IMG/VR virus record: IMGVR_UViG_3300035698_020314 | Location: 1-32,682 of that record | Direction: 5' to 3' (one strand) | Length of the DNA stretch: 32,682 bases | Source of the DNA: a virus | Shown here: in pieces, positions 3,494 to 24,141 of the stretch | Position numbering within the stretch: position 1 is the stretch's first letter | Layout: every line of letters begins with the position of its first letter | The notes under the pieces: model-generated | The model's database searches: none | What the model was told of the DNA's origin: nothing | What the model saw: only the letters and a program-made list of their open reading frames with translations | Position numbers and translations under genes: made by a program

Positions 3494-3802
3494 TTATTTT
3501 TGTTTAAAAAGTATTTTTATCACCCCACAAGAATCTTTTCTCATTACCTGTATTAATTGTTCACCTGAATATAAAATATCAGCAATGTTCTCTAGTTTAC
3601 GTTGATTTTGTTTATTTGTTTTGATTATATAAACTCCTCTTTTTTCAAGGTTTCTTGTATCCATTTGGATTGTTACTGCCACTGGATCAGCTTCTTGTTT
3701 TAAATATAAATGTTTGAAGTTAATGAATGCAGCCAAGTCTAAAATAATTATAATTACAAGAACCCAAACTAATACGTTTTGATGTATATACTGTTTTTTC
3801 AT
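3494..3802 (-). CDS. Small membrane-anchored protein, last gene of leftward block
   Basis: I place the start at the ATG at 3802 (MKKQYIHQN), giving 102 residues, because that ATG overlaps the stop of a coupled microprotein gene just upstream (ATGA). An in-frame ATG at 3853 is possible but would overlap that microprotein. A membrane segment (about residues 11-29, VLVWVLVIIIILDLAAFI) is followed by an 70-residue soluble domain that looks like mixed alpha/beta. The family is not recognised. Its stop codon directly abuts the stop of the endolysin gene on the other strand. Confidence 0.6.
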   Translation of the reverse strand: MKKQYIHQNVLVWVLVIIIILDLAAFINFKHLYLKQEADPVAVTIQMDTRNLEKRGVYIIKTNKQNQRKLENIADILYSGEQLIQVMRKDSCGVIKILFKQK

Positions 3803-3891
3803 AATTGAGAAATTAAATGTAAAAATATTAATACTATTCCAATCAAACAACATATTATTCCTATTGGTTCTAAAATCTTTTGATATTTCAT
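3799..3891 (-). CDS. 30-residue single-pass membrane microprotein
   Basis: Too short for usual gene calling. The frame starts with ATG at 3891 inside the stop of the Rad50 C-terminal gene (ATGA) and ends with TGA inside the start of the next gene (ATGA). The peptide begins MKYQKILEPIG and is then almost wholly hydrophobic (about residues 9-27), ending HLISQL. The double ATGA overlap and the clean membrane helix make chance unlikely. It fills the gap between the neighbours exactly. Function unknown; a small membrane regulator is possible. Confidence 0.6.
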   Translation of the reverse strand: MKYQKILEPIGIICCLIGIVLIFLHLISQL

Positions 3892-4514
3892 AATACTTTT
3901 ATTTTAGTAATTCCATTTTTTATTTGGGTTTCAAATACTCTATCAGCAATATCAATTAAATCTTCTTTAAAAGCCTTAGCGTCACCGATCATTATAATTT
4001 GTAAATTTAGTTTTGTTGAGATTTCTTTTATCATTTTTAATGCGTTTTCATTTTCCTTTTCCCCGCGTAAATGACTAAAGGGTTCATCCAATATAATTGT
4101 ATCACTTTTTTTAGGGTTTTCCATACTCCATGAAGCTATGCGTAAAGCGAAAGCAGCAACATCCACTGTTCCACCCCCAGAAGCATCCATGGGTTTCACT
4201 TTATTATCATCACGGGAGAAAAACAAATCACATTCAGTCTTATTCCTTCTTTCCACAAAATCAAGAATGACTTTATAAGGATTATCAAACACAGCTTCCA
4301 TTGCCATAGAAGTTATACCAGATATATGGAAAGATAGTGAGTTTTGCATTTTCAGTGATATCTCTTTAACGATAGCCAGAGCCTTGTCGTGGTTTGACAC
4401 GTTTTTAGCCATCATTTTTACATCCTCAGTAGTTTCCTTCAGAATAACTTCTAATTGTATCATTTTGCCCCGTTCCTGTTCTAAGCGGGTTCTTAAAGTT
4501 TCAAGTTTAGTCAT
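3888..4514 (-). CDS. Rad50/SbcC-like ATPase, C-terminal half
   Basis: This 208-residue protein is the C-terminal lobe of an SMC/Rad50-type ABC ATPase. It has a short coiled coil (about 1-50), the ABC signature ASGGGTVDVAAFALR (from 111), Walker B IILDEP with D143 and E144, and a D-loop SHL (147-149). There is no Walker A; that lies in the separate gene at 6130-7191. The two chains would have to pair to build ATP sites, as the lobes of Rad50 do. The usual switch-region His appears to be replaced in IIMIGDA. It overlaps the upstream coiled-coil gene by 8 bases. Confidence 0.8.
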   Translation of the reverse strand: MTKLETLRTRLEQERGKMIQLEVILKETTEDVKMMAKNVSNHDKALAIVKEISLKMQNSLSFHISGITSMAMEAVFDNPYKVILDFVERRNKTECDLFFSRDDNKVKPMDASGGGTVDVAAFALRIASWSMENPKKSDTIILDEPFSHLRGEKENENALKMIKEISTKLNLQIIMIGDAKAFKEDLIDIADRVFETQIKNGITKIKVL

Positions 4515-4746
4515 TACTTAAATAACATTTATATAAATCATCTGTTTTTTCTGATACCTCATTATCTAAATCATCTGTTTTCTTCTTTAGTTGTTTTAGT
4601 TTCTTTTTAGCACCATCAATAGATTCACAATTAAATTCCGTTTTCAATCGTTTTAGTAATGCCTTTTTTTCACCTTCCAATTCGTTAGATTTCTTTTCAG
4701 CATTCTCAATTTTTTCTTTTAGTTCTAATAATTTTTCAGTATTCAT
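4507..4746 (-). CDS. Small coiled-coil protein between Rad50-like parts
   Basis: This 79-residue, highly charged helical protein has heptad-like Leu/Ile spacing (KLLELKEKIENAEKKSNELE) and no obvious globular domain. It lies between the Mre11-like gene and the Rad50 C-terminal half and overlaps the latter by 8 bases. The C-terminal Rad50 piece has a much shorter coil than the N-terminal piece, so this protein could supply or pair with part of the missing coil. That is inference only. Confidence 0.6.
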   Translation of the reverse strand: MNTEKLLELKEKIENAEKKSNELEGEKKALLKRLKTEFNCESIDGAKKKLKQLKKKTDDLDNEVSEKTDDLYKCYLSND

Positions 4747-4747
4747 A

Positions 4748-4981
4748 TCAATTAAGTTTAGTCATATTTGCAACTGCTTCTTTTTTACCTTTTTCAATAC
4801 CTATTTTTTCCCCGGCTTCGAAAGCTCTATTCCATAAAGTTTCTATAAAGTCACCAGTTCTTTGTTGCATTTCCATACCCATTAAAAGTTGATTCTTTTG
4901 TAGTTTTAGATTATTTCCTAATTCTTGAATGAGTTGTAGAAATTTTAAAGTTTCTTCATTTTTCTTAATTGATTCCATCAT
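4748..4981 (-). CDS. Small helical protein of unknown function
   Basis: This 77-residue helical protein begins MMESIKKNEE. Its start overlaps the stop of the Mre11-like gene by four bases (ATGA), so it is coupled to it. The C-terminal part has a regular AFEAGEKIGIEKGKKEA pattern, a repeated Gly/Lys/Glu helix seen in many small phage proteins. The family is not recognised. Context suggests a partner of the recombination nuclease. Confidence 0.55.
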   Translation of the reverse strand: MMESIKKNEETLKFLQLIQELGNNLKLQKNQLLMGMEMQQRTGDFIETLWNRAFEAGEKIGIEKGKKEAVANMTKLN

Positions 4982-5880
4982 AATTCTAAAGCTTTAAGAA
5001 TTAAATTGATAATTGGTTTTTTTATTTTGTTTTTCTTTTTAAGTCTTTCAAGGTTTTCAGTGAATGATAAAGTACTATTCCATTCATCTTTTAATTGAGC
5101 TACAAAAGCATCTATCTTTTCATTGCGTTGCTTTTTAATATCAATATGTTCACGAGTGATTACGTTTTCCGCGCATGGTATTTTAACCCGCTTTACCGTA
5201 TTAGTATCAGCATAGTATAAGTACACTGAAGGTTCATGGTCTATTTGATCGGCTTTATGTCGGGTTAAAGAACCGGGATTGACTAAGATGCGACCGTCTA
5301 AAGTTTCCACAAAAGATTGATGATTATGCCCAGTTACAATTAGATCATACTCAGGGTATTTTTTCAATAGTTTAGAAGCTTTCGGGTCAGTACAATCAGG
5401 CCACGGCTTTTTACCTTGGTAAGTCATAGTGTGCCAAACTAATATTTTTCTATTTTGTAATAAATTTGATAAAGCTTGTGAAATAGAAATTTTTTCCCTA
5501 TTTGGTTTTTTACCCCAATGAACATTATCTAATATCATTATTACTCCAGCTTTGGCTAAAGTATGAACACCCGATTTAAATGATAAATCTAAATTATGTT
5601 GAGGTAAATCATGATTACCATAAACTGTATAAAATTGTTTAGGGATGTTTTCAATAGTTTTAGATAGTAAACTTGGAGAAGGTTTCCAATGTTCAAATAA
5701 ATCTCCAGAATGTAATACAGGGCATATATATTTCTTTTGTAAGTTTTTTATAAAGCGTAATTTTTTCCATTGAGCCTCTTCATGATTATCAGTTCTACAA
5801 ATTGGTTGATCTAAACGTAGATGAAAATCACCACACAATATTAAATCCGGGATTTTATTATTTGTTTTATCTCTTTTCAT
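4978..5880 (-). CDS. sbcD: Mre11/SbcD-like metallophosphoesterase nuclease
   Basis: This 300-residue protein has the full calcineurin-type metallophosphoesterase motif set: GDFH (D18, H20), HSGDLFE (D60), YGNHD (N89, H90, D91), VWHTM (H150) and TGHNH (H185, H187), followed by NPGSLTRH. This is the Mre11/SbcD arrangement, a two-metal nuclease that works with Rad50/SbcC on double-strand ends (T4 gp47, T5 D12). The C-terminal 70 residues are helical and may be the Rad50-binding part. It lies between the two halves of the Rad50-like protein and overlaps the upstream small gene by 14 bases. Confidence 0.85.
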   Translation of the reverse strand: MKRDKTNNKIPDLILCGDFHLRLDQPICRTDNHEEAQWKKLRFIKNLQKKYICPVLHSGDLFEHWKPSPSLLSKTIENIPKQFYTVYGNHDLPQHNLDLSFKSGVHTLAKAGVIMILDNVHWGKKPNREKISISQALSNLLQNRKILVWHTMTYQGKKPWPDCTDPKASKLLKKYPEYDLIVTGHNHQSFVETLDGRILVNPGSLTRHKADQIDHEPSVYLYYADTNTVKRVKIPCAENVITREHIDIKKQRNEKIDAFVAQLKDEWNSTLSFTENLERLKKKNKIKKPIINLILKALEL

Positions 5881-8145: not shown

Positions 8146-8733
8146 TTAATTCTTTCTAATAAATTTTAATATCTCTGACTCTTTACAAGCTACGTGATGT
8201 ATTGATAACGAATCAGCCACAGCTTCATCAAAATACTTAACACCAGACCAGGGCGCAGTTTCTTTTAGTTTTTTACCGGAAACTGGAACACTATATAATT
8301 TATCAATCTTTTGAATAGTTTCTAATTTCGAAGCAGAAGCCCTTCCAAATAAAGCTTTCTTAGCATCTCCCTCAGAATACCACTCAATGCCAATTCCGGT
8401 AAACACAGAAACAGTTTGTAGTATTCCTAAAACAGCTCCAACCATTACTGCCGCAGCAGCACTCTGACTTCCGTGGGGTAATTCCGAAACGATGTGTTTA
8501 ATATTATGAGTTTCTATAATACTTTTTAAAGCATTCCCTATTTCAGAAGCCCGACGTACCCGGTCATCCCCTTTTCTTATTCGAAGTTTAGCAGCTTTAG
8601 ATTCTGTTTTAATACACCCCTGAGCGTGGATAGTATTATTCTCATCAATTACTACCCACCCCCACCCTGTCAAGCTTGGATCATTGGCAAGAATATTAAA
8701 TGTTGAAGCTCGTTTTTTATTTCGTTTCTTCAT
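8146..8733 (-). CDS. ruvC: RuvC-like Holliday-junction resolvase
   Basis: This 195-residue protein has the RuvC RNase-H-like fold. D18 lies in NDPSLTGWGWVV, E84 lies in the strand end IVSELPHG, and the C-terminal acidic pair is in FDEAVADSLSI (E170, D174). A basic N-terminal extension of about 10 residues precedes the first strand. Such enzymes cut four-way junctions left by recombination or replication before packaging. It lies with RecA, SSB and the Rad50/Mre11 genes, which fits recombination-dependent replication. Confidence 0.8.
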   Translation of the reverse strand: MKKRNKKRASTFNILANDPSLTGWGWVVIDENNTIHAQGCIKTESKAAKLRIRKGDDRVRRASEIGNALKSIIETHNIKHIVSELPHGSQSAAAAVMVGAVLGILQTVSVFTGIGIEWYSEGDAKKALFGRASASKLETIQKIDKLYSVPVSGKKLKETAPWSGVKYFDEAVADSLSIHHVACKESEILKFIRKN

Positions 8734-8744
8734 TTTATATAATA

Positions 8745-9035
8745 TCAGTTTAAGGTTTCTTCAATTTCACTTAAAATATATTTCATTTCGGGAGACAAAT
8801 AATGATCGTGGTTAGGTTTATCAAAATCTTTAATAGTCTGCCAAATAGTTCTTAACACCAGCGGAAAGTCCTGATGATAAATATCCCTGCCTTTATTATA
8901 CGCTTGTTTCTTTTCGATCTTCTTTTTAACCAGTTTGAAGACGTTAGGGGCGTTTTCTTCCACCCACCTTAATAAAGTCTTATTAGGGATGGGAAGCTGT
9001 TTAATTTTGGCTGATTTCTTAGTTCTTTGTTTCAT
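8745..9035 (-). CDS. Small basic protein of unknown function
   Basis: This 96-residue protein is Lys-rich at the N terminus (MKQRTKKSAKIKQ) and helical afterwards, with LLRWVEENAPNVFKLVKKK. The C-terminal part is acidic. It shares one base with the RecA stop. No family is recognised; it is possibly a recombination accessory by position. Confidence 0.5.
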   Translation of the reverse strand: MKQRTKKSAKIKQLPIPNKTLLRWVEENAPNVFKLVKKKIEKKQAYNKGRDIYHQDFPLVLRTIWQTIKDFDKPNHDHYLSPEMKYILSEIEETLN

Positions 9036-10093
9036 TATCGTTTTTTACGTTTCCGGTCTTTTTTAAATTTATCTTCCACAATTTCCCATAAGTCCATAGT
9101 GGCTTCTTTTAGTTTATTTTCCAAACTATTTTCTTCCACCCAATCAATAGACTCATCAAGACTCTTTTTTAATTTAGTATCACCAAATCCATATACAGAT
9201 AAACCCTGATACATTTTACAAAATTTCAGGTTTTCTCTAATGTCATCTATCCCATAATCAAATAGAATAGTGACAGGGGCAGTCCGGTACGGTTTCCAAA
9301 CAGAACTTTTCTCAACTTCAATAATAACCTCAACACCGCAAGCCCTTTCAACCAGCTTACCTTTTATGGTTTTCTTATCTTTAATCTTTTTGGCATTACT
9401 AAACTTTAAACGTAAGCTTGAATAATACTCAATTGCTTTACCTCCGGGACTAATATGCTTTTTACCAAACATTCCAGCATCTGTGTTTTCCCGTAATTGA
9501 TTAGTGCAAAATAATAATAGGTTTCTTTCAGAAATAACACGGGCACATTTTCTTAAATGCTCACTAAACTCTTTGGCTCGTTTCATTCCCATCTTATCAC
9601 CGTCATCATTATCCATTTCTAAAGAAGTAGACAAAGCTGCCAGAGAGTCCATACAATACCCATTTATTACAGAAGTATTAATATCATCCCAATGGTATAA
9701 AGGCAAAAAAGCATCTGTGACCGTATTAGGTTTATCATGATCCACTTCTTTCCAGTTTAAATCAAACATCTCTGCGAAGTTCTTATTCAATCGAGCCTCT
9801 GGGTCACGAAATTTAACCAAACCACCTTGACGTTGTATGCTACCTGCTACTTCACAAGCCAATACAGTTTTACCACTACCACTTGGCCCAAAGGCTTCCA
9901 CCATAATTCCACCCGGTATTCCACCCCCTCGTTTGCGCCCTCCTGAGATAGCTAAATCTAAAAGTGTTGACCCTGTACTAATAGTGGTTTCTATATTACC
10001 ATCATACTTTTTTTTAACAACAGTTTTCGTTTTAGTTCGGGCTTTTAATTGCTTTTCTAATTTATTTTTATCTCTCTTCATCTTTAAATCCAT
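9035..10093 (-). CDS. recA: RecA-like recombinase
   Basis: This protein of up to 352 residues has the RecA core: TGSTLLDLAISGG, Walker A GPSGSGKT (69-76), the catalytic-Glu strand KFRDPEARLN (E99), and a Walker B-like VINGYCMDSLAAL. A loop segment NQLRENTDAGMFGKK leads to SPGGKAIEYYSSLRL, matching the RecA Q-N-R and GG-A-L pattern. It would form filaments on ssDNA and catalyse strand exchange. A basic N-terminal helix and a Lys/Arg-rich C terminus replace RecA's acidic tail. The ATG at 10081 (MKRDKNK) is an alternative start; either overlaps the upstream gene. Confidence 0.85.
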   Translation of the reverse strand: MDLKMKRDKNKLEKQLKARTKTKTVVKKKYDGNIETTISTGSTLLDLAISGGRKRGGGIPGGIMVEAFGPSGSGKTVLACEVAGSIQRQGGLVKFRDPEARLNKNFAEMFDLNWKEVDHDKPNTVTDAFLPLYHWDDINTSVINGYCMDSLAALSTSLEMDNDDGDKMGMKRAKEFSEHLRKCARVISERNLLLFCTNQLRENTDAGMFGKKHISPGGKAIEYYSSLRLKFSNAKKIKDKKTIKGKLVERACGVEVIIEVEKSSVWKPYRTAPVTILFDYGIDDIRENLKFCKMYQGLSVYGFGDTKLKKSLDESIDWVEENSLENKLKEATMDLWEIVEDKFKKDRKRKKR

Positions 10094-13488: not shown

Positions 13489-14883
13489 TTACATTTTAAT
13501 TTTTTCTTTTTCAGCCCAACTACCGTCCACTGGACATAACTCAGCATCTACATTTAAAGGAACGTTAATCCATTTCCAAGCTTGTTTTAAATCATTACAA
13601 GTTACGCAACGAATTACTTTTAAAATATGCTCTAATTCAGACGGGTGCACATCCAAAACAATAGCATCATGAATTTGCCCTATTATACGGGTTTTCCATT
13701 TCTCCCTTTTCATTATTTCAGTAAGTTCTATAAAAGACCATAAAAGACAATGAAACGCAGAACCCTGTACTGGATAATTAGTAACTTCATTGCACCTCAT
13801 TAAACCTTTACAAACAAATCCAGTCTTTAATGAAACATAGCCCTTTTTCTGGTAATCTTTCCAAGCCTTTTCTTTCCATTCTTTATATTTTGAAAAACGA
13901 TCTTCCCAAAAATGTTTTTCTATTTTCTGAATATGGTTTTCAAAAGCTTTATAAGATTCAATTCCATTTTTAATTAAGTGGTCTGAAATAGTTCCTTTAT
14001 CTAATTTAATTCCTTGACCTTTTTTCCATTTACCTTTAGAAAGCTTACACCAACCAACCGCCAAAGAATCTGCATTGTTTTTATAGTAGTCGCCATAGAA
14101 TTGAGGAAATACAAAACCGTTTTTAGCAGCTTTACGTAAAGTGGAATGGGCTTTAGAATCTTCATTAAATTTCTTTAACATGAATATTTCTTTAGCCATA
14201 TCAGCGTGCATATCAGAAGCAGGATTATTTAAGTATTCTAACATTACAGGGTCTTGGTGATAACAAGCTCCAATAGAAACTTCTAAACCGGAGTAATCAG
14301 CTTCCAATAATTGATGCCCCTTTCTTGGATAAATAGCTTTTCTACATATCTGTTGTGATTCAAAATCCCTATTTGGTATATTCTGAAAATTAGGATTAAA
14401 ACTTGATGAGCGATATGTTACCGGAAAAGCCAAACCAAAAGATGGATGGATATAACCCTCCACTGTTTCCCTCGCAAATCCTTCTAAAAAAGTATCACGA
14501 AGTTTTTTATATTTTTGAGCTTTTATTAGAATATTTAATTCAGGGATATTTAACAATTTCAAAGTCTCTTCACTAGTGCTACCCAAACCAGATTCAGTGA
14601 ATTTAGTTATGGGTATTTTTTTAACACCGTAAATAAAACCGCGCAATTGAGCATCTGAATATATATTTAAAGTTCCTTTACTGGTATGTTGCCAGTGTCT
14701 ATAAAATTTAGTTGTTTTAAACTCTTTTTCAAGTTTGTCTATTTTTATAGTTAACTCCTTTTGCGTTTTTTTAATATATTTCGTGTCTATTCTAAAGCCT
14801 TGTTTTTCTGCTAAATGTAAAGCTAAAGTTCCATCATGAAATAGTCGGTAAGCTTCTTTGGTAATTGGTAATGATTTACTCAT
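13489..14883 (-). CDS. Family A DNA polymerase, polymerase domain only
   Basis: With the ATG at 14883 the protein has 464 residues. Motif A is LLEADYSGLEVSIG (D196). Motif B is R250-KAA-K254 followed by FVFPQFYG, and motif C is QIHDAIVLDV (H405, D406). RSSSFNPNFQNIP precedes motif A as in other Pol I enzymes. It has no 3'-5' exonuclease; that domain is in the upstream gene, overlapping here by 8 bases (ATGAGTAA). The spacing in motif B seems one residue longer than in E. coli Pol I. TTG (14913) or ATG (14901) are alternative starts. Confidence 0.85.
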   Translation of the reverse strand: MSKSLPITKEAYRLFHDGTLALHLAEKQGFRIDTKYIKKTQKELTIKIDKLEKEFKTTKFYRHWQHTSKGTLNIYSDAQLRGFIYGVKKIPITKFTESGLGSTSEETLKLLNIPELNILIKAQKYKKLRDTFLEGFARETVEGYIHPSFGLAFPVTYRSSSFNPNFQNIPNRDFESQQICRKAIYPRKGHQLLEADYSGLEVSIGACYHQDPVMLEYLNNPASDMHADMAKEIFMLKKFNEDSKAHSTLRKAAKNGFVFPQFYGDYYKNNADSLAVGWCKLSKGKWKKGQGIKLDKGTISDHLIKNGIESYKAFENHIQKIEKHFWEDRFSKYKEWKEKAWKDYQKKGYVSLKTGFVCKGLMRCNEVTNYPVQGSAFHCLLWSFIELTEIMKREKWKTRIIGQIHDAIVLDVHPSELEHILKVIRCVTCNDLKQAWKWINVPLNVDAELCPVDGSWAEKEKIKM

Positions 14884-16102
14884 GATCTGGCACCTTTCCA
14901 TAAATTTGATCAATTTGCAATACTGCTAAACGATATTGGTTAATAGTATCTAAAGCACAATATCCCATCAGTTCTTTTTGTCCTCCCGGTTTTTTTAGAA
15001 GCTCTTTAATTTGATTAAAGGAATTAGCATTTTTACTATCTTTCCCTTTAGTTTCTAAATAAGGAGTGACTTCACTGGCATAATCTACCACCCCAAATAT
15101 TACGTATGTTTGAAACTTTAAACTAACAATTCCACTTCGATTATCAAGTATATGAGCACCCAACATACTATCCCATACCCAATTTGCTACGGAAGTGCCC
15201 AATATTTCTACACTCCACGTTTCTTCATACTTCATATTATGCGCCATCTTTTTGATTAATCTATTTTTCAATAAATTAATAAACGGTTTTCTTTTTTTCT
15301 TTTTCTCCGGCATCATAAAAACATACGCTTTGTTCTCACTAACAGCGACTGAAGTGCACACGATTTCATGTCCTTTCCGGTGGGGTTTTATTCCGGTTGT
15401 TTCGTAATCAATAGAAACTAAACTATTGGCTTTAAGCTTATCAAATATACTTAAATCCTTAATGTATTTTATTTTCGGCTTTGGATAAGTTAATAAAGGT
15501 TTTCCAATCAGCTTACTAATACGTTTTAAATCTTGAAACCAAATAGTATCAATTTCTTTTCCTTTATGAGCTTCTATTTTCTCTGGGTGATATACCGGAC
15601 AAACCCAAGCATTAAAATCCTGATCTGGTATTGTCCATCCCCTCCACTTTTCAATAGAACCCATATTTTTTTTCCATCTGGATGCTATAAGTGTATTCAA
15701 AGGAAACTCACCAAAGCTTATTATTATCTTTGGTTTGTTTTCCTTTATAATATCTAAGACCCTTTTACGACAGCAATTAATAGAATTAGCAGTAAGAGGT
15801 TTATCACCTCCGAAACAATTAACAGCGTTTATCCCCATACAATCCTCAAACAGGTTAATACCTACTTCAGACAACGCTTGTTCGATCATTTTCCCATACT
15901 TATCTTGAAAAGGTTTTCCCCGTGAATCATCTAAAGCTTCCGGGGCTTTTCCTATCACCAGAATCTTCTTTTTAAATTTACCAAAAGGGGGCAGCTTGGG
16001 ATGTTCCGCATTTTCATGTAAACCGCATGAAACGCATGACAAAAACTTTCCCCCTTTGAGTTGAGAAGATTCTTTTTGCTTATTACTAAAAAAGCCTCCC
16101 AT
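14876..16102 (-). CDS. UDG-like domain fused to DnaQ-like 3'-5' exonuclease
   Basis: This 408-residue protein has two domains. Residues about 15-200 resemble family-4 uracil-DNA glycosylase, including four candidate cluster cysteines (C23, C26, C96, C110 or C111) and ILVIGKAPEALDDSRGKPF. Residues about 210-408 are a Pol I-type exonuclease: SIDYETTG (D232, E234), AHNMKYE (N289, E293), and YCALD (Y381, D385). A UDG-exo-pol order is known in SPO1-type DNA polymerases, so this is the front half of such an enzyme. The UDG acidic motif is changed (GKAP rather than GEAPGEEED), so glycosylase activity is doubtful. The usual second exo Asp is Glu. Confidence 0.8.
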   Translation of the reverse strand: MGGFFSNKQKESSQLKGGKFLSCVSCGLHENAEHPKLPPFGKFKKKILVIGKAPEALDDSRGKPFQDKYGKMIEQALSEVGINLFEDCMGINAVNCFGGDKPLTANSINCCRKRVLDIIKENKPKIIISFGEFPLNTLIASRWKKNMGSIEKWRGWTIPDQDFNAWVCPVYHPEKIEAHKGKEIDTIWFQDLKRISKLIGKPLLTYPKPKIKYIKDLSIFDKLKANSLVSIDYETTGIKPHRKGHEIVCTSVAVSENKAYVFMMPEKKKKRKPFINLLKNRLIKKMAHNMKYEETWSVEILGTSVANWVWDSMLGAHILDNRSGIVSLKFQTYVIFGVVDYASEVTPYLETKGKDSKNANSFNQIKELLKKPGGQKELMGYCALDTINQYRLAVLQIDQIYGKVPDHE

Positions 16103-16105
16103 AGT

Positions 16106-17128
16106 CTATTCTTGTACGCTTAAAAGAACAGTTACATACTCCCAACCTTGTCCGTAAAACTTCAATTTGTTTTCGGTCATTATAGCTTCCGTAGCTTGTT
16201 TTAAGATCGTTTTTAATAGATACGGATAAATTGAGAAACGTAAACCTGCTGCTTTCTTCATATCACAATCAACCGCTTCTTTAAACCAACCTCCATTTTC
16301 TGCTTTGGCAGTTACTTTTAATTTTCCTTTTTCAAGTTGAATACTAATTTTCTCATTCAACAATCCCGGTCTTTTATAGAAAGGTTCAGCCCTTTCGATT
16401 ACGGATATTAAAGTGTCTGGAAAATTGATTTTAACACCCTCTGCTTTTAAATATTCATCAATAGGTGGGTATTTTTCAGACAGTACTCTACATGAAATAA
16501 TAGTATCGTTTGCGTTCTTAAAATGAACCCATCCATCCCCTTCACATATTTTAATTGGGTTTAAATTTAAAACTTGGTTAACTGAAGAAACCGGAATTAA
16601 AAAAGCAGGTATGCTGATTTTCTTTTCTAAAGTACACCGTGCAATTTGATAACTATCTGAACCCTCAACGTGGATGCCATCTACATTTACGCAATTTAAA
16701 ACATCAGCACTTTTGCTACCGTCACAAGCCCCCAAAGCTATCTTTAAATAATTTAGGAAATCTTCAGGTAATTTTTTCCATTTACCGACTTCCACTGAAG
16801 ATTCTTCAAGCGGCAATTTAATTTTAGAAGCTATTGGAAACCCGGCTTTTGCTCTCCCGGCTTTTATGTCCAATTCAGTTTTGGTTATTTCCATTTCAAC
16901 TTCCGCAACTTTCAACTTCTTTAGAAATTTATAGAAAGAATCAGAATCCACAGCCCCTTTAATTTGTAAATCTTTTACAGGATGAGTAATGCTAATTTCA
17001 TCGTTGTACGTAACTGCTTTATTATTCATAAAAGCAAACTGCGTAGATTGTTCAATACTTTCGTTTGTACCCAAGCCCGGTTTTACTATTTCCAGAGCTT
17101 CAATTAATGATTTAATTTTTACTTTCAT
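16106..17128 (-). CDS. dnaN: DnaN-like sliding clamp
   Basis: This 340-residue protein has the length and strand-helix repeats of a bacterial-type beta clamp. VEGSDSYQIARC (near 154-165) corresponds to the conserved TDGHRLA segment of DnaN, and SCRVLSEKYPPIDEYL corresponds to the LIEGRYPDY segment. The C-terminal part also fits clamp-like strands. It would tether the split polymerase to DNA. It lies three bases before the UDG-exonuclease gene and overlaps the previous gene by four bases. Confidence 0.8.
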   Translation of the reverse strand: MKVKIKSLIEALEIVKPGLGTNESIEQSTQFAFMNNKAVTYNDEISITHPVKDLQIKGAVDSDSFYKFLKKLKVAEVEMEITKTELDIKAGRAKAGFPIASKIKLPLEESSVEVGKWKKLPEDFLNYLKIALGACDGSKSADVLNCVNVDGIHVEGSDSYQIARCTLEKKISIPAFLIPVSSVNQVLNLNPIKICEGDGWVHFKNANDTIISCRVLSEKYPPIDEYLKAEGVKINFPDTLISVIERAEPFYKRPGLLNEKISIQLEKGKLKVTAKAENGGWFKEAVDCDMKKAAGLRFSIYPYLLKTILKQATEAIMTENKLKFYGQGWEYVTVLLSVQE

Positions 17129-17931
17129 AATTTTTCTTTTATCATTCCTGAATAAACTTTTCTTTTACTTACCGGGTTTAACTTATCTTTAAACCGTTCC
17201 AACCCGGCTAAACCTAAAGTGCCCCCGTCATTTACTAATTTCTTTTTGTCTTGAATTTCTGGATCAGTATAAAATAAATATCTCATGAACTCATCAAGGT
17301 ATGGTTCATTTTCACGCACAATAACAAATCGGTAGTTTATAAATTTCCAATTCTCATCGTAAACGTTTACAGCTTTTAATTGACCATCATGGTATAATCC
17401 TATAAAGGAGGCTTTGGAATCTTTATTCAAAGTCATATCAATTAAAACATCAGAACCTTGAAAATTTAATTCTTTACTTTCTAACCATTCCCCTATCAGA
17501 CAAGAAAGTTCTATGGTATCGTCAATTTCCCGATAGTGACACATTTCATGTGTTTTAGGGTACTTTCTTATGTTCTTTCTAAAGGTAGCCCATTGAGAGC
17601 CTGAAAGGTCATTAAAACGCTCCGGGTCATAAATGTATTCCCATTCCAAAAATTGCCAATCTATTTTATTATAAAAGCTAAGTAATAAATAATTATATTC
17701 AAATAAGTTACTCCAAATGTTTAGCGTATTTTTAGAGTCTGGGGCAGTTGAATACCTTTCTTTAATCGGGGGAAATAAACTCCAACCACTTTCAGTAACT
17801 TTCCACCAACCATCTTTTTCCCAACATTTTGCTTTCACAGCTTCTAAATAAGCTTCAGACATAAAAAAGTTTGGCGTAATCCCGGCTTTCTCAGCTACGG
17901 TCAAAAAATCCTGTATGCTTTTTCGATTCAT
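17125..17931 (-). CDS. DUF2156/LPG-synthase-C-like (GNAT-fold) protein
   Basis: This 268-residue protein matches the two signature regions I know from the DUF2156/COG4866 group. The first is a central YIYDPERFNDLSG followed by a basic FRKNIRKY patch. The second is a C-terminal VNDGGTLGLAGLERFK followed by NPVSKRKVYS. Members of this GNAT-fold group include the aminoacyl-tRNA-dependent lysylphosphatidylglycerol synthases, but most have no known substrate. No membrane segments are seen. It is coupled by four bases to the clamp gene and overlaps a microprotein gene upstream. The substrate is unknown. Confidence 0.55.
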   Translation of the reverse strand: MNRKSIQDFLTVAEKAGITPNFFMSEAYLEAVKAKCWEKDGWWKVTESGWSLFPPIKERYSTAPDSKNTLNIWSNLFEYNYLLLSFYNKIDWQFLEWEYIYDPERFNDLSGSQWATFRKNIRKYPKTHEMCHYREIDDTIELSCLIGEWLESKELNFQGSDVLIDMTLNKDSKASFIGLYHDGQLKAVNVYDENWKFINYRFVIVRENEPYLDEFMRYLFYTDPEIQDKKKLVNDGGTLGLAGLERFKDKLNPVSKRKVYSGMIKEKL

Positions 17932-18815: not shown

Positions 18816-19013
18816 CTATTTTTTAGATTTATTCGTATCAGTTTCATAAACCCAATTTGGGTTTTCTTTTAAAGAGACTGCGTCACATTCTACAACATTA
18901 TCACTACCTTTACCACTTCCCAATATAGTTACTTGGGTAGGACAATCAGCAATACAATATTTACAAATATCGCATAGGTTCTTTTCTAAATCGGTTGTTC
19001 TATATACTTTCAT
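18816..19013 (-). CDS. Small Cys-rich protein, ferredoxin-like or zinc-binding
   Basis: This 65-residue protein has C14, C17, C20, C24 and C43. LCDICKYCIADCP reads as CxxCxxCxxxCP, the consensus for one [4Fe-4S] cluster of bacterial ferredoxins. The rest of the sequence (LGSGKGSDNVVECD) instead recalls small zinc-binding proteins with a late conserved Cys. Its start overlaps the radical SAM stop by four bases, so the two are coupled. If it carries a cluster it could feed electrons to that enzyme. Both readings stay open. Confidence 0.55.
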   Translation of the reverse strand: MKVYRTTDLEKNLCDICKYCIADCPTQVTILGSGKGSDNVVECDAVSLKENPNWVYETDTNKSKK

Positions 19014-20413
19014 AATAAATTATTTACAAGATTTTCTCTGTAATCAGTATCTTCTTTTTTCCATAAAACACCATCTTCATCACGACCTGCCGAAACTAAA
19101 CCTGCAGCCCACTGGTGTCCATAAGCTATATTGCCTTCCAAGTTCCAAAGCTTCTTAACTTCTAACCTTAAAGTAGGGGTGAGGAAACCCCCGTGGTGGT
19201 CTACAAACTTCTCAAACATCGACCAACTCACCAACTTTCCTTTCTTGTCACAAATAAAACGAGCTGCCATTACAGTACACCCGTAGTTCCAACCCCCTTT
19301 AAAGTAATCAGCAACCTCACAACATATTGCTTGACTATTTGCCGGAGCGTTACCCATATCGAAAGTAGAACTTGAAAAACCAGCCTCTCTAAATAACTCC
19401 ATAAATTTTCCCAAAAGTAAAGAGCCCAAAGGTTGGCTGTCACAACCCACTAAAAACATACGGTCATAGTCATAACCCTCGTTAATAAAACTTTGACGTA
19501 TTCCACTATTTCCAGCAGTATATGAGTACGTGTCAAATGTAATGTTCCGTACTCCAACCGCTTTTAAATCTTCCATATAACGAGCCACATCATCTGGATC
19601 ATCAGTTATTAAAAATAAATATGGCTCAATTCTAGCAACTACTCTAATTCCAGCGTCAACCATTCTTTTAATAGCTTCTAATCGTTTTGTATAAGTGGGT
19701 GCGCCAGGTTCTAATTTCTTTAAAACAGTATCATTGCTGGAAATCAAAGTAACATGCACAGCTCCTCCGGCAGGGTTTTCAGATAACGCTCTCAAGTACG
19801 AATCCTCACCAACCAAAGCTGATTTGGTATTAATCATTACCGGATATTCAACCTCTTTTAAATACTGTAACATTGCTAAGCTTATGCCGTCCCGTTTTTC
19901 ATGTTTAAGAAAGTCCTCAAACCTTATGCCCATACGTACCGGAATTTCTAAACCATACGCTTTATTAATTCCTTGGAGTTCTCTTTTTCCATCTAAACTT
20001 AAAGCTCTAAATTTAGACATCTTGTCCATTTCCCGTTTATAGTAATCCGGATTACAGTGACGCAATCCCATCGTTTTACTATTATCGAAAAAGGCAGTGT
20101 AAAGACTTGCCCGGAAAGAATTAGCATAACAATAAATACAATTATAAGGACAGGTGAGCCCATCCCAAATATCCATATTAAAAGGCATAGGACACGCAGC
20201 AGCTCTGACCGATATTTCCAAAAAAGAATTAATTTCTTCAGTGTTCAATAAACGCTCCTGCTTTCTCCACTCCTTGTGTTTTAAATTGTATTGTTTGTAA
20301 TTCTTTTTGCGCCCCTTTTCCCGAACTAGTTCTGATTTCCTATTCGAAGGAAACAGCTGTGTCATTCGTGGAATGATCTTACTTGCTTTTTTTCTTAATT
20401 CCCAATAGTCCAT
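19010..20413 (-). CDS. Radical SAM protein, spore-photoproduct-lyase type
   Basis: This 467-residue protein has the radical SAM cluster motif CPYNCIYCY (C88, C92, C95). It continues with the COG1533/SplB pattern: a VHVTLISSND strand, LEPGAPTYTKRLEAIKRMV, then DAGIRVVARIEPYLFLITDD. Known members include SplB, which repairs thymine photodimers, and many uncharacterised enzymes. Extra Cys occur at the C terminus (ICCEV, YGCTV). It is the fourth of four adjacent redox or radical genes and overlaps the Cys-rich gene downstream. Substrate (DNA lesion, base or protein) cannot be read. Confidence 0.78.
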   Translation of the reverse strand: MDYWELRKKASKIIPRMTQLFPSNRKSELVREKGRKKNYKQYNLKHKEWRKQERLLNTEEINSFLEISVRAAACPMPFNMDIWDGLTCPYNCIYCYANSFRASLYTAFFDNSKTMGLRHCNPDYYKREMDKMSKFRALSLDGKRELQGINKAYGLEIPVRMGIRFEDFLKHEKRDGISLAMLQYLKEVEYPVMINTKSALVGEDSYLRALSENPAGGAVHVTLISSNDTVLKKLEPGAPTYTKRLEAIKRMVDAGIRVVARIEPYLFLITDDPDDVARYMEDLKAVGVRNITFDTYSYTAGNSGIRQSFINEGYDYDRMFLVGCDSQPLGSLLLGKFMELFREAGFSSSTFDMGNAPANSQAICCEVADYFKGGWNYGCTVMAARFICDKKGKLVSWSMFEKFVDHHGGFLTPTLRLEVKKLWNLEGNIAYGHQWAAGLVSAGRDEDGVLWKKEDTDYRENLVNNLL

Positions 20414-20414
20414 A

Positions 20415-21368
20415 TTATTTAATTATAAATAGAAATTTATTAGACCATGAATCTATTTCTTCAATATCGTTTTTACTCAAAAAAAGATTTACAGAATCAT
20501 AATTTATTTTAACATTATCTACATTGTTTGATTTTGGTATGGGTATAATTCCTTTACTAATTATCCAAGATAAAATTAATTGAGAAACTTCACAATTGTT
20601 TTTAGAAGATAAAGAATGTAAAAAAGAATTGCTGTCTAATAAAGTTAATGACTTTTTAAGATTTTGAGAAAAAGGACTGTAACCAATAATTTTTATTTTA
20701 TTTTTAATACAAAAGGGTATTAAATAATTTATTGAATCTTTTCTCCATAAAGAAAATGGAATTTGAATCGTTTCAATTTTAGAAGTAAGGGACAATGCTA
20801 ATTTTAAGTATTCCCCATTGCAATTACATAATCCTAAAGAATAGGGGGCTTTAAAAAAACCGGAATTTAACTTTACTACACTTTCAATAACTTTCAAAAA
20901 ATTAAAATTAATATTTGGCCAGTGTAATTGGTAATGTATTCTTTGGTTTTTAAATTTAATTAGCTCTCTGTTATACCCTTTCGAAATGTTTTGATTTGTC
21001 ATTAAATTTTTAGCAATCTTAGTAGCTACTAAAACACCTTCATAATTTGAAAGTAGTGATGAAAGTTCCTTTTCTACTTTTCCAAAACCATAAGTTGGTG
21101 ATGTATCAATAAATGAATAACCTAATTTTAATGCAGTCTTTATAATGGAGTGATCATATTTCCATCCATACGTGCCTATTCCAATTTTAATACTATCCCA
21201 ATTAACACTCTCTTTTTTACTTCCATCACATACATTGGTTTTGGGTTTTTCAATTAATATTTTTTTAAACTCCTTTAGCTTAACAATTGATAAAGTATCT
21301 ATTGCATCCCGAACTAAATGAGACCAAGCAACACCTTGTATATGATCTATTTTTTTAGAATTTTTCAT
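20415..21368 (-). CDS. Aldo/keto reductase family protein
   Basis: This 317-residue protein has the AKR barrel with a complete catalytic tetrad: D88 and Y93 in FIDTSPTYGFG, K117 in LVATKI, H149 in YQLHWPN. A C-terminal PIPKSNNVDNVK is the usual nicotinamide-cofactor region. The first 50 or so residues precede the barrel and match nothing I know. AKRs reduce carbonyls using NADPH; the substrate here is unknown. It overlaps the FAD gene by 14 bases and ends one base before the radical SAM start. An AKR is an unusual gene in a replication operon. Confidence 0.8.
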   Translation of the reverse strand: MKNSKKIDHIQGVAWSHLVRDAIDTLSIVKLKEFKKILIEKPKTNVCDGSKKESVNWDSIKIGIGTYGWKYDHSIIKTALKLGYSFIDTSPTYGFGKVEKELSSLLSNYEGVLVATKIAKNLMTNQNISKGYNRELIKFKNQRIHYQLHWPNINFNFLKVIESVVKLNSGFFKAPYSLGLCNCNGEYLKLALSLTSKIETIQIPFSLWRKDSINYLIPFCIKNKIKIIGYSPFSQNLKKSLTLLDSNSFLHSLSSKNNCEVSQLILSWIISKGIIPIPKSNNVDNVKINYDSVNLFLSKNDIEEIDSWSNKFLFIIK

Positions 21369-22296
21369 CTTTTATTATTTTATTGGCGGAAAATCCTGCT
21401 GATATTAATCCCATTTTTCCAGAGCCTACTGCCACCCAACATTTATCTTTTTTTAGTATTGCACAAGGTTTATGTTCTTTTATTCTAGTGAAACAACGCA
21501 AACCTCTAATTGTTCTTATTAATTTTAATTCATTTCCAATTTCACCCCTTATCCTTTTTAAACTTTCATCAATCCTACCTTCATACCAACTGGGTAAAGT
21601 TAATGCAGAACCATCACCACACCAAAGTATCTTTTCTTTTTCATAAAAACAATTGTGGACGGTTATTTGTTTATATGGTGCCCAAAATTTAACAAAAGGC
21701 TGATCGATCAAACCGTCAAAATGGAAAGAAAACCCCCGTTTTACAATTAAACCTAATGAGTCACAAACGGATGGTAATAATTTTAAACTATCAAAAGCCG
21801 CAGCAAGTACAATTATTTCTGCTACTATTTTTTTGTAAACACCTTTTTTGGTTTTATAAAAAACAATTCCATCTTTTTCATTTATAAAAACAACTTCACC
21901 ATAATTCTTTTTTATTCCAAAAATAGAATCCATATTAACACCATGAGTGTCTACTTTTACGAAATTGCCGGAAGGTCTTAAAATTATCTTTTCTTCATGC
22001 GTACCAAAAGTTGAATCTATAAGAGTCAATACCTCTTTAAATTGGTATTTGTCTAAAGATGTAAATCTTGAAGGCTTTATTAAACCACCACAGGGTCTAC
22101 TCCCTGAATCTTTGCTTTCATTATCCAATACAAAAACATCCTTTCCCCTATTTCTTAATGATTGAGCAATAGTAGCTCCCATAATTCCTGAACCTATAAC
22201 AACTATTTGTTTTTTAATTGTTTCTGAACTTTTAGAAGCAAAAAAGGTTTCTTTGTTTTTCCTTCTTTCTATTTTATAATCAAATAATTTATTCAT
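21355..22296 (-). CDS. FAD-dependent oxidoreductase, DAO (ThiO-like) family
   Basis: This 313-residue protein has a Rossmann dinucleotide motif VVIGSGIMGATIAQSL (GSGIMG 35-40) with the acidic strand end VFVLDNE. A C-terminal FAD-contact segment WVAVGSGKMGLISAGFSANKII is present, as in amine/amino-acid oxidases of the DAO family. About 30 extra residues precede the Rossmann fold. It probably oxidises an amine or amino-acid-like substrate, not specified. It overlaps both neighbours (4 bases upstream, 14 downstream), so it belongs to a coupled set with the AKR and radical SAM genes. Confidence 0.75.
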   Translation of the reverse strand: MNKLFDYKIERRKNKETFFASKSSETIKKQIVVIGSGIMGATIAQSLRNRGKDVFVLDNESKDSGSRPCGGLIKPSRFTSLDKYQFKEVLTLIDSTFGTHEEKIILRPSGNFVKVDTHGVNMDSIFGIKKNYGEVVFINEKDGIVFYKTKKGVYKKIVAEIIVLAAAFDSLKLLPSVCDSLGLIVKRGFSFHFDGLIDQPFVKFWAPYKQITVHNCFYEKEKILWCGDGSALTLPSWYEGRIDESLKRIRGEIGNELKLIRTIRGLRCFTRIKEHKPCAILKKDKCWVAVGSGKMGLISAGFSANKIIKDEKF

Positions 22297-23348
22297 AATC
22301 CTGTATCTTTTAAAGTGTAAAAATCACATTTTTCACCTCTCACTATTTGACAACCTTGTTCGTAGTTTCCTGTGCCATCATTACATAGTTGTAAGATTGT
22401 TTCGGGACTTTTACCCAGTTGAGCATATTTCTTAAAGTAATGACTATTAAAGGTACAAGGGTTTGGGACGTCAATACCACAACAAGTATTCGCTTTCTCC
22501 AACCAATCTTTTCCGCTATTTACGAAATCTGGGCAACCTAATAGAATACCATGTTTTTTTGATAAGTTCAATAACTGTTGTAAAATAGGTTTCCAATGTT
22601 TGTCTTGGTTATAATACCATATTTGTTCAATATCTACTCCCGGCAGATTTACCATTCTTTTAGCTACAAAAGCATTAAAATGAAAATTATATGTATTATA
22701 ACTTTTGATCTTAAATTCTTTTAAGAGTTTCAAAGTATTTTCGAAATCTTCAACTTTATGAAATCCCGGAATAAAGGGCTCACCATTAACTCCTCCGGGC
22801 ACTCCTTTTTTTAATAGCTTTTTAAGGTGTTTTAAGCGTTTTAAAGGGTTTGTAGTTAGCTTATGTTCAAATGTCTCCCAATCCTTCTCTAATCCGGGGG
22901 AAACAATAGGCATTACGGTTATTAGTTTCTTTTCATTACATTCCATTATCTGATCTACATAATCTAACATAACATGAGTGAATTTTGTTTGGATTACAAA
23001 AGACCAATCGTGTTTAATAAATAATGGAAATATTTGTTCTGCTATTTTATGCTTTCTTTCTGCTAATTGAAAGGGGTCTGTTTTATTGCCCCACCTGATT
23101 GTTTTCTTTTGACTTAATGCGTGAGCTAAAGTAGTTTTTGGATTTGTATTCTTTAAACCGTTTGTTAGCTTCTTATCTAATAAAGTAACATCCGTTGGTT
23201 TTAAATCTTTACCCCATGTATGATTTAAATGACGAAAATAACAATGAATACAATCGGTCATACAGTTTCCGTAACTATCTAATGAAAGGGAAAGGGGGCA
23301 ATATAGACTGTCCCCTCTCATAGTTAAACTATTTTTTAAAAAATTCAT
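22293..23348 (-). CDS. Radical SAM protein, second SPL-like
   Basis: This 351-residue protein has the cluster motif CMTDCIHCY (C29, C33, C36) and a radical SAM barrel pattern (KTIRWGNKTDPF, VIQTKFTHVMLDY, ITVMPIVSPGLEKDWE). The early part looks like COG1533 enzymes. The C-terminal third is Cys-rich (TCCGID, PCTF, GCQIVRGEKCDF), which could hold an auxiliary cluster. It is the first gene of the coupled block, overlapping the FAD gene by 4 bases. Substrate unknown. Confidence 0.75.
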   Translation of the reverse strand: MNFLKNSLTMRGDSLYCPLSLSLDSYGNCMTDCIHCYFRHLNHTWGKDLKPTDVTLLDKKLTNGLKNTNPKTTLAHALSQKKTIRWGNKTDPFQLAERKHKIAEQIFPLFIKHDWSFVIQTKFTHVMLDYVDQIMECNEKKLITVMPIVSPGLEKDWETFEHKLTTNPLKRLKHLKKLLKKGVPGGVNGEPFIPGFHKVEDFENTLKLLKEFKIKSYNTYNFHFNAFVAKRMVNLPGVDIEQIWYYNQDKHWKPILQQLLNLSKKHGILLGCPDFVNSGKDWLEKANTCCGIDVPNPCTFNSHYFKKYAQLGKSPETILQLCNDGTGNYEQGCQIVRGEKCDFYTLKDTGL

Positions 23349-23349
23349 T

Positions 23350-24141
23350 TTAGTTCAAAATTCCAATAGCTTCAAACACTTGTTTAACCCTTCTGTATTC
23401 TGCTTTTTGTTCTCCAAAATTCAAATCTTTACCTTCATGTTCAGAATAAAGCTTATCTGCTTCTTTTACCAAATCCTCCATACTACCTTCCAAATTCTTA
23501 TGAAATACTTGAGCCATAACCGTTATTCGACTGATCCGTTTTTTATTTTTGTCTTTTTTCGGAGCAGCTTTCTTTTCAGCCTTTTCACGGGCTTTCTTTT
23601 CCTTTTTGGTTTCCACTACCGGAGGAGCGGCAGCAGCTTCAGTTTTTTCACGGGCTTTCTTTTCCTTTTTAGTTTCTTCTGGAACAGGAGCGTCATCTGC
23701 CTCAAGATATTCGCGCATCGCTTTTTTCAAGGAAAGGTGATTGTCAATTTTGGCAAGTTTTTTTCGACCTTCATTAAATACCGGGTTTTCCAACATTTCC
23801 AAAATTTCAGTCTTTTTCTTCATAGGCTTCAAAACATCAACCATTTCAGCTGGGCTTAAATCAGCTTCAGCAGCGGGTTCTTCTTTTTTACCTTTACCCT
23901 TTTTTTCTTTTTTCTTTTCCACTTTAGCTTCAGCAGCAGCTTCTTCAACTTCTGCTTTCAAAGCGTCAATTACTTTCTGGGTAGCAGGTGTCCACTCATC
24001 CGTATCTTCTAATTGAGGGATGGCATCAATTACGAACGTTCTATATTGCTCGTCAGTAAAATCTTTACCCAATTGAGATGTTTCGAACATTTCTTTGTCT
24101 AGTTCGACAGCTGCTTTTTTAATTTGCTTTTCTGTTGCCAT
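23350..24141 (-). CDS. Lys/Glu/Ala-rich protein with C-terminal helical domain
   Basis: This 263-residue protein has an N-terminal helical part, a highly charged low-complexity middle, and a helical C-terminal domain (about 203-263, ISRITVMAQVFHKNLEG onward). In the middle ETKKEKKAREK occurs twice, at 156-166 and 177-187, 21 residues apart. The Lys/Ala-rich tracts resemble histone-tail or linker segments, so DNA or RNA binding is possible but unproven. It is the first gene after a long intergenic region with a terminator, so it probably starts a transcript. Confidence 0.6.
   Translation of the reverse strand: MATEKQIKKAAVELDKEMFETSQLGKDFTDEQYRTFVIDAIPQLEDTDEWTPATQKVIDALKAEVEEAAAEAKVEKKKEKKGKGKKEEPAAEADLSPAEMVDVLKPMKKKTEILEMLENPVFNEGRKKLAKIDNHLSLKKAMREYLEADDAPVPEETKKEKKAREKTEAAAAPPVVETKKEKKAREKAEKKAAPKKDKNKKRISRITVMAQVFHKNLEGSMEDLVKEADKLYSEHEGKDLNFGEQKAEYRRVKQVFEAIGILN

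Follow-up and report, generated by a model that had tools for sequence, protein, structure and literature searches.

How might a phage modify its DNA bases if its recognizable enzymes belong only to the last steps of a known pathway? The question is raised by five minus-strand genes at positions 18,816 to 23,348 of IMG/VR virus record IMGVR_UViG_3300035698_020314, a 32.7-kb virus fragment that we analyzed over its whole length of 32,682 nucleotides (the window). In order, they encode a first radical S-adenosylmethionine enzyme (rSAM1), a flavin adenine dinucleotide (FAD) enzyme of the DAO type, an aldo/keto reductase (AKR), a second radical SAM enzyme (rSAM2) and a small cysteine-rich protein. 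The block is probably the variable part of a phage operon, set inside the replication genes, for hypermodification of a DNA base, most likely thymidine; its finishing enzymes are of known types, while its front end appears to differ. We established here the families, motifs, gene order, exchange pattern and absence of detectable front-end genes.

The initial annotation described five genes coupled by 4- or 14-base overlaps or a 1-base gap, and all open reading frames (ORFs) and junctions agree with this: rSAM1 and FAD genes overlap by 4 nt, FAD and AKR genes by 14 nt and rSAM2 and cysteine-rich protein genes by 4 nt, with 1 nt separating AKR and rSAM2. Its family assignments, including an AKR with a D-Y-K-H tetrad, also hold in Pfam, NCBIfam and alignment comparisons. 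Its outline of the block needed revision: the five genes are coupled, but the unit is longer at both ends (Table 1) and the cysteine-rich protein is not conserved. The block is not a chance run of ORFs, given that dozens of phage contigs carry the rSAM pair and that rSAM2 is strongly conserved.

Finishing enzymes in an exchangeable slot

By sequence comparison, the FAD gene product is a homologue of the flavin-dependent lyase, a finishing enzyme of phage DNA hypermodification. Profile searches matched it to DAO (6.7e-9) and phrog_16743 (2e-25). Among solved structures, its only strong phmmer matches were two entries named 'Flavin-dependent lyase' (8z2o and 8z79, 2e-23), followed by sarcosine oxidase (1e-3); residues 28–309 align to lyase residues 2–283, a full-length homology to solved enzymes. 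Identity is 27% over about 90% to PaMx11 gp47 and 32% to the Epa5 homologue. The phage collection yielded matches in 18 records, including 15 Pseudomonas phages (PaMx11 gp47 among them) and one Rhizobium phage, and in both annotated phages inspected (PaMx11 and RHph_TM26) the homologue has a thymidylate synthase (TS) gene and further hypermodification-type genes in its vicinity. A direct search of IMG/VR with the FAD protein found no relative. The WAPYxQ motif and R267 of the GxR motif are invariant (the GxR arginine in six of six aligned sequences), and we take this arginine to resemble the one by which DAO-type enzymes bind a substrate carboxylate. In PaMx11-type phages, an enzyme of this kind cleaves off a portion of the glycine that the thymine C5-methylene carries; the lyase reportedly turns N-alpha-glycyl-thymidine into 5-aminomethyl-deoxyuridine (5-aminomethyl-dU). 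The AKR tetrad (D88-Y93-K117-H149) is likewise invariant, in five of five aligned sequences.

We collected relatives by scanning IMG/VR with rSAM1 and rSAM2, obtaining 14 and then about 80 contigs, and counted 79 loci with near-copies included. The gene-order search proposed in the initial annotation found the rSAM pair's order in 79 loci, few of which depart from the sequence rSAM1, slot, rSAM2, PCNA-fold clamp, FemX/MprF-fold protein, polymerase clamp. The slot holds a pyridoxal phosphate (PLP) enzyme in 29 loci, a methyltransferase-like (MT-like) gene with an AKR in 11, MT-like with PLP in seven, FAD with AKR in three, MT-like alone in two, and FAD+AKR+PLP and AKR alone in one each; nothing was detected in the other 25, many of which lie on truncated or rearranged contigs. 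In the rSAM1 tree, the MT-like+AKR loci make up one clade (100/100), and the clade that holds the window (100/98) shows FAD+AKR and PLP replacing each other. The module thus has a constant core, the rSAM pair, and a swappable cassette, FAD+AKR, and the lower third-position GC content of the FAD (0.18) and AKR (0.16) genes, compared to the rSAM genes (0.25 and 0.32), is in keeping with a swapped cassette. The annotation had reasoned that finding the same genes apart in related phages would count against a joint pathway; this applies by half, in that FAD+AKR can be exchanged as a cassette but the rSAM pair stays fixed.

The slot PLP enzyme of many relatives is of fold-type II and shares 33–36% identity over 98–99% with gp52 of phage M6. 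Its homologues occur in 65 phage records, all of them Pseudomonas (M6/YuA group), Bordetella, Rhizobium, Sphaerotilus, Stenotrophomonas or Pseudanabaena phages. In 198 genomes of one bacterial phylum there were only two weak matches (about 27 bits), and therefore the link to phage enzymes is specific within that test. The PLP gene is grouped with rSAM, TS, ADDT and HMUDK genes in the hypermodification phages inspected (M6, Pam3, CN1 and Bhz59). Consequently, the FAD and PLP homologies indicate that finishing enzymes of both known glycine-derived branches share one slot in one phage lineage. Thymidine hypermodification, one option in the initial annotation, is clearly favored, though not proved, by these homologies and by the case of M6, where the PLP enzyme is paired with an rSAM belonging to this broad family. 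In locus L060, an Amidoligase_2-like gene (8523-9440, 4.5e-7) lies between the PLP enzyme and rSAM2, which fits amino-acid chemistry.

The search for initiating enzymes

The canonical front end consists of a TS-type dUMP hydroxymethylase, a 5-hydroxymethyl-dU (5-hmdU) DNA kinase (HMUDK) and an amino acid:DNA transferase (ADDT). Absence inside a fragment is weak evidence on its own, and hence relatives were searched: Pfam searches covered HMUDK and ADDT in the window and 14 relatives, TS in the 14 relatives, and all three in 29 further large records. Neither HMUDK nor ADDT was found in any of the 15 or the 29 records, hence in none of 43 relatives; TS was absent from the 14 relatives, and three of the 29 records carried a TS-like gene. 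We also built profiles for all three from seven hypermodification phages and ran an unfiltered HMM search (--max), which detected the positive controls M6, PaMx11 and Pam3 and gave no match in the window, the 14 relatives or eight large contigs. One front-end-negative relative of 73,759 bp carries a 123-bp direct terminal repeat, which indicates a complete genome, and another of the eight large contigs carries terminase, portal, head and tape-measure genes. The lack of a dUMP hydroxymethylase or base kinase, first noted for the window, therefore extends to most relatives, including the terminal-repeat contig. The canonical front end is undetected, as a search result and not as proof of absence. 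A TET/JBP dioxygenase was rejected as the source of a hydroxymethyl base, since PF12851 was absent in 15 and 27 records.

We infer that the FAD or PLP enzyme acts on an amino-acid-bearing pyrimidine; the rSAM pair, the prime suspect for the front end, may build this amino-acid adduct. Through radical attack at C5 of the pyrimidine, the pair would contribute to making a base that bears an amino acid or is activated in another way, bypassing 5-hydroxymethyl-phosphate chemistry. FAD+AKR would then trim and reduce the adduct, with either an aldehyde base or lyase-freed glyoxylate as the AKR's target; some relatives have the AKR without FAD, nearly always beside an MT-like gene, a pattern that speaks against glyoxylate disposal as its sole role. 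The PCNA-fold clamp may keep the enzymes attached to DNA, and the modification would protect the phage's DNA against nucleases of the host. The position of the block beside replisome and clamp genes fits DNA as the target. It is possible, if doubtful, that the route is hydroxymethyl-free in a strict sense: the rSAM pair would functionalize the thymine C5-methyl directly in DNA, tethered by its dedicated PCNA-fold clamp, and install an amino-acid-like group for PLP, FAD or AKR trimming, with no need for a modified dNTP, base phosphorylation or ADDT.

The radical SAM pair and its neighbors

The CX3CX2C motif is invariant in both enzymes (C29/C33/C36 in rSAM1 and C88/C92/C95 in rSAM2). rSAM2 is the most conserved protein compared, with a median identity to relatives of 70% versus 54% for DNA polymerase. 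By hhalign, rSAM1 matched the M6-type rSAM with 94.8% probability (E 5e-8). Searches of PDB sequences with both rSAM profiles gave no useful match, and neither DNA megablast against phages nor tblastn with rSAM2 gave any. In GTDB genomes, rSAM2 occurs on only two contigs from metagenome-assembled genomes, indicating that the system is essentially phage-borne. Inteins with homing-endonuclease-like ORFs appear to interrupt rSAM2 in L015 (8730-9296), L016 (8543-9899) and further loci, sitting at the CX3CX2C motif at two distinct insertion points (splicing-type motifs were recognized by eye). In one sub-group of these phages, comprising L055 (7430-8284) and nine more loci, the first rSAM is divergent and is preceded by a DUF362 gene (7e-36). 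Upstream of rSAM1, L017 has a QueD-like gene (3501-4066, recognized by eye) and what may be a short piece of QueE.

The gene following rSAM2, sometimes after small intervening ORFs, encodes a protein that was first suspected as a replacement transferase or kinase; this was dropped because its predicted fold is that of a PCNA-type clamp (AlphaFold2 pLDDT 82; Foldseek to PCNA/9-1-1 clamps, E about 4e-8, probability 1.0). A separate polymerase processivity factor is present in 68 loci and adjoins the module in nearly all relatives, and the phage thus has two clamp-like proteins, of which the PCNA-fold one is tied to the rSAM pair. Between them, the 17125..17931 product is predicted to have the fold of aminoacyl-tRNA-dependent transferases (AlphaFold2 pLDDT 86; Foldseek 2hqy at 6e-13, and also MprF, A-PGS and FemX). 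We did not assign it as an aminoacyl-tRNA-dependent replacement for ADDT, because it persists in L203 without the rSAM pair. The small CxxCxxCxxxC protein, which matches only part of the ferredoxin models, is a possible one-cluster ferredoxin; no relatives clustered with it among the 79 loci.

The 60-kb record L203 has the helicase, FemX/MprF-like gene, clamp, exonuclease and polymerase of the lineage; rSAM1, rSAM2, a slot gene and the PCNA-fold clamp were not detected in it (165 bases of the record lay outside the profile search). A TET-associated glycosyltransferase (TAGT) gene (4710-5855, 7.6e-40) lies between its helicase and FemX/MprF-like genes. This one case suggests that the locus is an exchange site for DNA modification and that the PCNA-fold clamp and the rSAM pair belong together. 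Further TAGT genes occur in L010 (3767-4591), L081 (18022-18873), L158 (5794-6711) and L058 (13250-14083), and no TET/JBP gene was detected in TAGT-bearing records where searched.

The replication module around the block includes a primase, replication initiator, DnaC-like loader, DnaB-like helicase, UDG-domain exonuclease, family A polymerase, clamp loader, UvsX/RecA, RuvC and SbcC-like ATPase. At 14876-16102, a UDG-superfamily domain is fused to a polymerase 3'-5' exonuclease, a fusion that is conserved across the lineage and of interest for phages possibly carrying modified pyrimidines. Low-complexity proteins resembling the Lys/Glu-rich product next to rSAM1 occupy the same position in many relatives.

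Table 1. Genes of the block and its surroundings in the window
Feature	Position	Strand	Support
Lys/Glu-rich protein abutting rSAM1	23350..24141	-	1-nt gap to rSAM1
rSAM1, radical SAM, 351 aa, SPL/PA0069/Rv2578c-like	22293..23348	-	NCBIfam PA0069 2e-16
FAD enzyme, flavin-dependent lyase homologue	21355..22296	-	phmmer 8z2o/8z79 2e-23
AKR, D-Y-K-H tetrad intact	20415..21368	-	PF00248 3e-28
rSAM2, radical SAM, 467 aa	19010..20413	-	Pfam Radical_SAM 1.2e-8
Small CxxCxxCxxxC protein	18816..19013	-	Fer4 models 5e-4 (below cut-off)
PCNA-fold two-domain clamp, 260 aa	18030..18812	-	AlphaFold2 and Foldseek
DUF2156/FemX/MprF-fold protein	17125..17931	-	PF09924 4e-5 (below cut-off), AlphaFold2 and Foldseek
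DNA polymerase processivity factor (clamp)	16106..17128	-	phrog_947 3e-28
UDG-domain/3'-5' exonuclease protein and family A polymerase	13489..16102	-	PF03167 2e-13, DNA_pol_A 2e-44

Competing explanations and known systems

An ordinary thymidine hypermodification, whose 5-hmdU, kinase and transferase steps are too diverged for recognition or lie on missing contig parts and whose rSAMs are mere isomerases as in M6, would account for finishing enzymes of known kinds, and the window is indeed a fragment. TS-like genes in three of the 29 large relatives point the same way; in two of these relatives the gene lies downstream of rSAM2 at a distance of a few kb. We nevertheless consider it unlikely: the --max searches with positive controls found no front end in near-complete relatives or the terminal-repeat contig, the Pfam searches for ADDT and HMUDK were likewise negative, and one isomerase step leaves two conserved rSAMs unexplained, even where no finishing enzyme was detected (L017 and L062).

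The remaining explanations dispense with hypermodification. Membership of both rSAMs in the broad group of spore-photoproduct-lyase (SPL)-like and PA0069 proteins, among replication and repair genes, could mean that they mend thymine lesions while the redox genes serve other metabolism. Such repair is very improbable, as two paralogues are kept as a fixed pair, the enzymes in the slot are homologous to hypermodification finishing enzymes, and the M6 homologue annotated as 'DNA repair photolyase', which adjoins gp52, itself sits in a hypermodification locus. Modification of a small molecule, cofactor, tRNA or peptide unrelated to DNA would suit AKR, DAO-type FAD and PLP folds, which are common in metabolism, and a FemX/MprF-fold protein of an aminoacyl-tRNA-using class. 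Yet no precursor peptide or biosynthetic genes were seen, the FAD and PLP enzymes match phage DNA-modification enzymes best, rSAM2 is followed by a PCNA-fold clamp, and a DNA-base glycosyltransferase takes the locus in L203; we regard this explanation as quite improbable.

Several points besides the TS-like genes weigh against a DNA-base hypermodification operon with a different front end. The virus is uncultured, and its chemistry and base identity are deduced from sequence; the FAD enzyme is only about 30% identical to the characterized enzyme, and its substrate could differ. The rSAMs may not be orthologues of M6 gp53, and for rSAM2 such orthology is unsupported (hhalign probability 35%). 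The FemX/MprF-like gene persists without the rSAM pair, and thus its role in the pathway is uncertain. L203 has a TAGT without a visible source of hydroxymethyl base, and an unrecognized upstream enzyme may therefore exist; completeness is uncertain for most relative contigs.

Known finishing enzymes and no known initiating enzyme in a widespread uncultured phage group point to a different activation of DNA bases, possibly radical C-H functionalization of thymine in DNA, and the route by which this group modifies its DNA is probably a new one. The exchangeable slot offers a ready set of natural variants, and what they make would matter both for how phages evade restriction and for DNA labeling chemistry.

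Compared to known systems, the block resembles the late part of M6/PaMx11-type thymidine hypermodification, with which it shares finishing enzymes. It is not counted as a member, because the hydroxymethylase, kinase and amino-acid transferase were searched for and not detected. According to PMC6449724, the well-studied thymidine hypermodifications of phages M6, ViI and phi W-14 are thought to share a 5-hmdU intermediate. The PaMx11 pathway to 5-aminomethyl-dU (5-NmdU, or its acetylated form) likewise has its homologous flavin-dependent lyase in the replication region; beside that lyase stand ADDT, HMUDK, a P-loop kinase and a TS-like enzyme, with no rSAM pair nearby, whereas the window has two rSAMs and an AKR and no detected front-end set. 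In the M6/YuA pathway to 5-(2-aminoethyl)-dU (5-NedU), the PLP enzyme is a homologue of the one in the slot of sister phages and adjoins an SPL-like rSAM, but the M6 locus has one rSAM, only remotely related to rSAM1, and a full front end. TAGT loci have a counterpart in the same replication region of L010, L058, L081 and L158, and in L203 TAGT replaces the module; no TET/JBP gene was found in the records searched for it, and the window has no TAGT match. The SPL, PA0069 and Rv2578c proteins belong to the same broad rSAM family and share the CX3CX2C motif; unlike them, the window's rSAMs fall below the family cut-offs, are paired and phage-restricted, and are coupled to modification enzymes.

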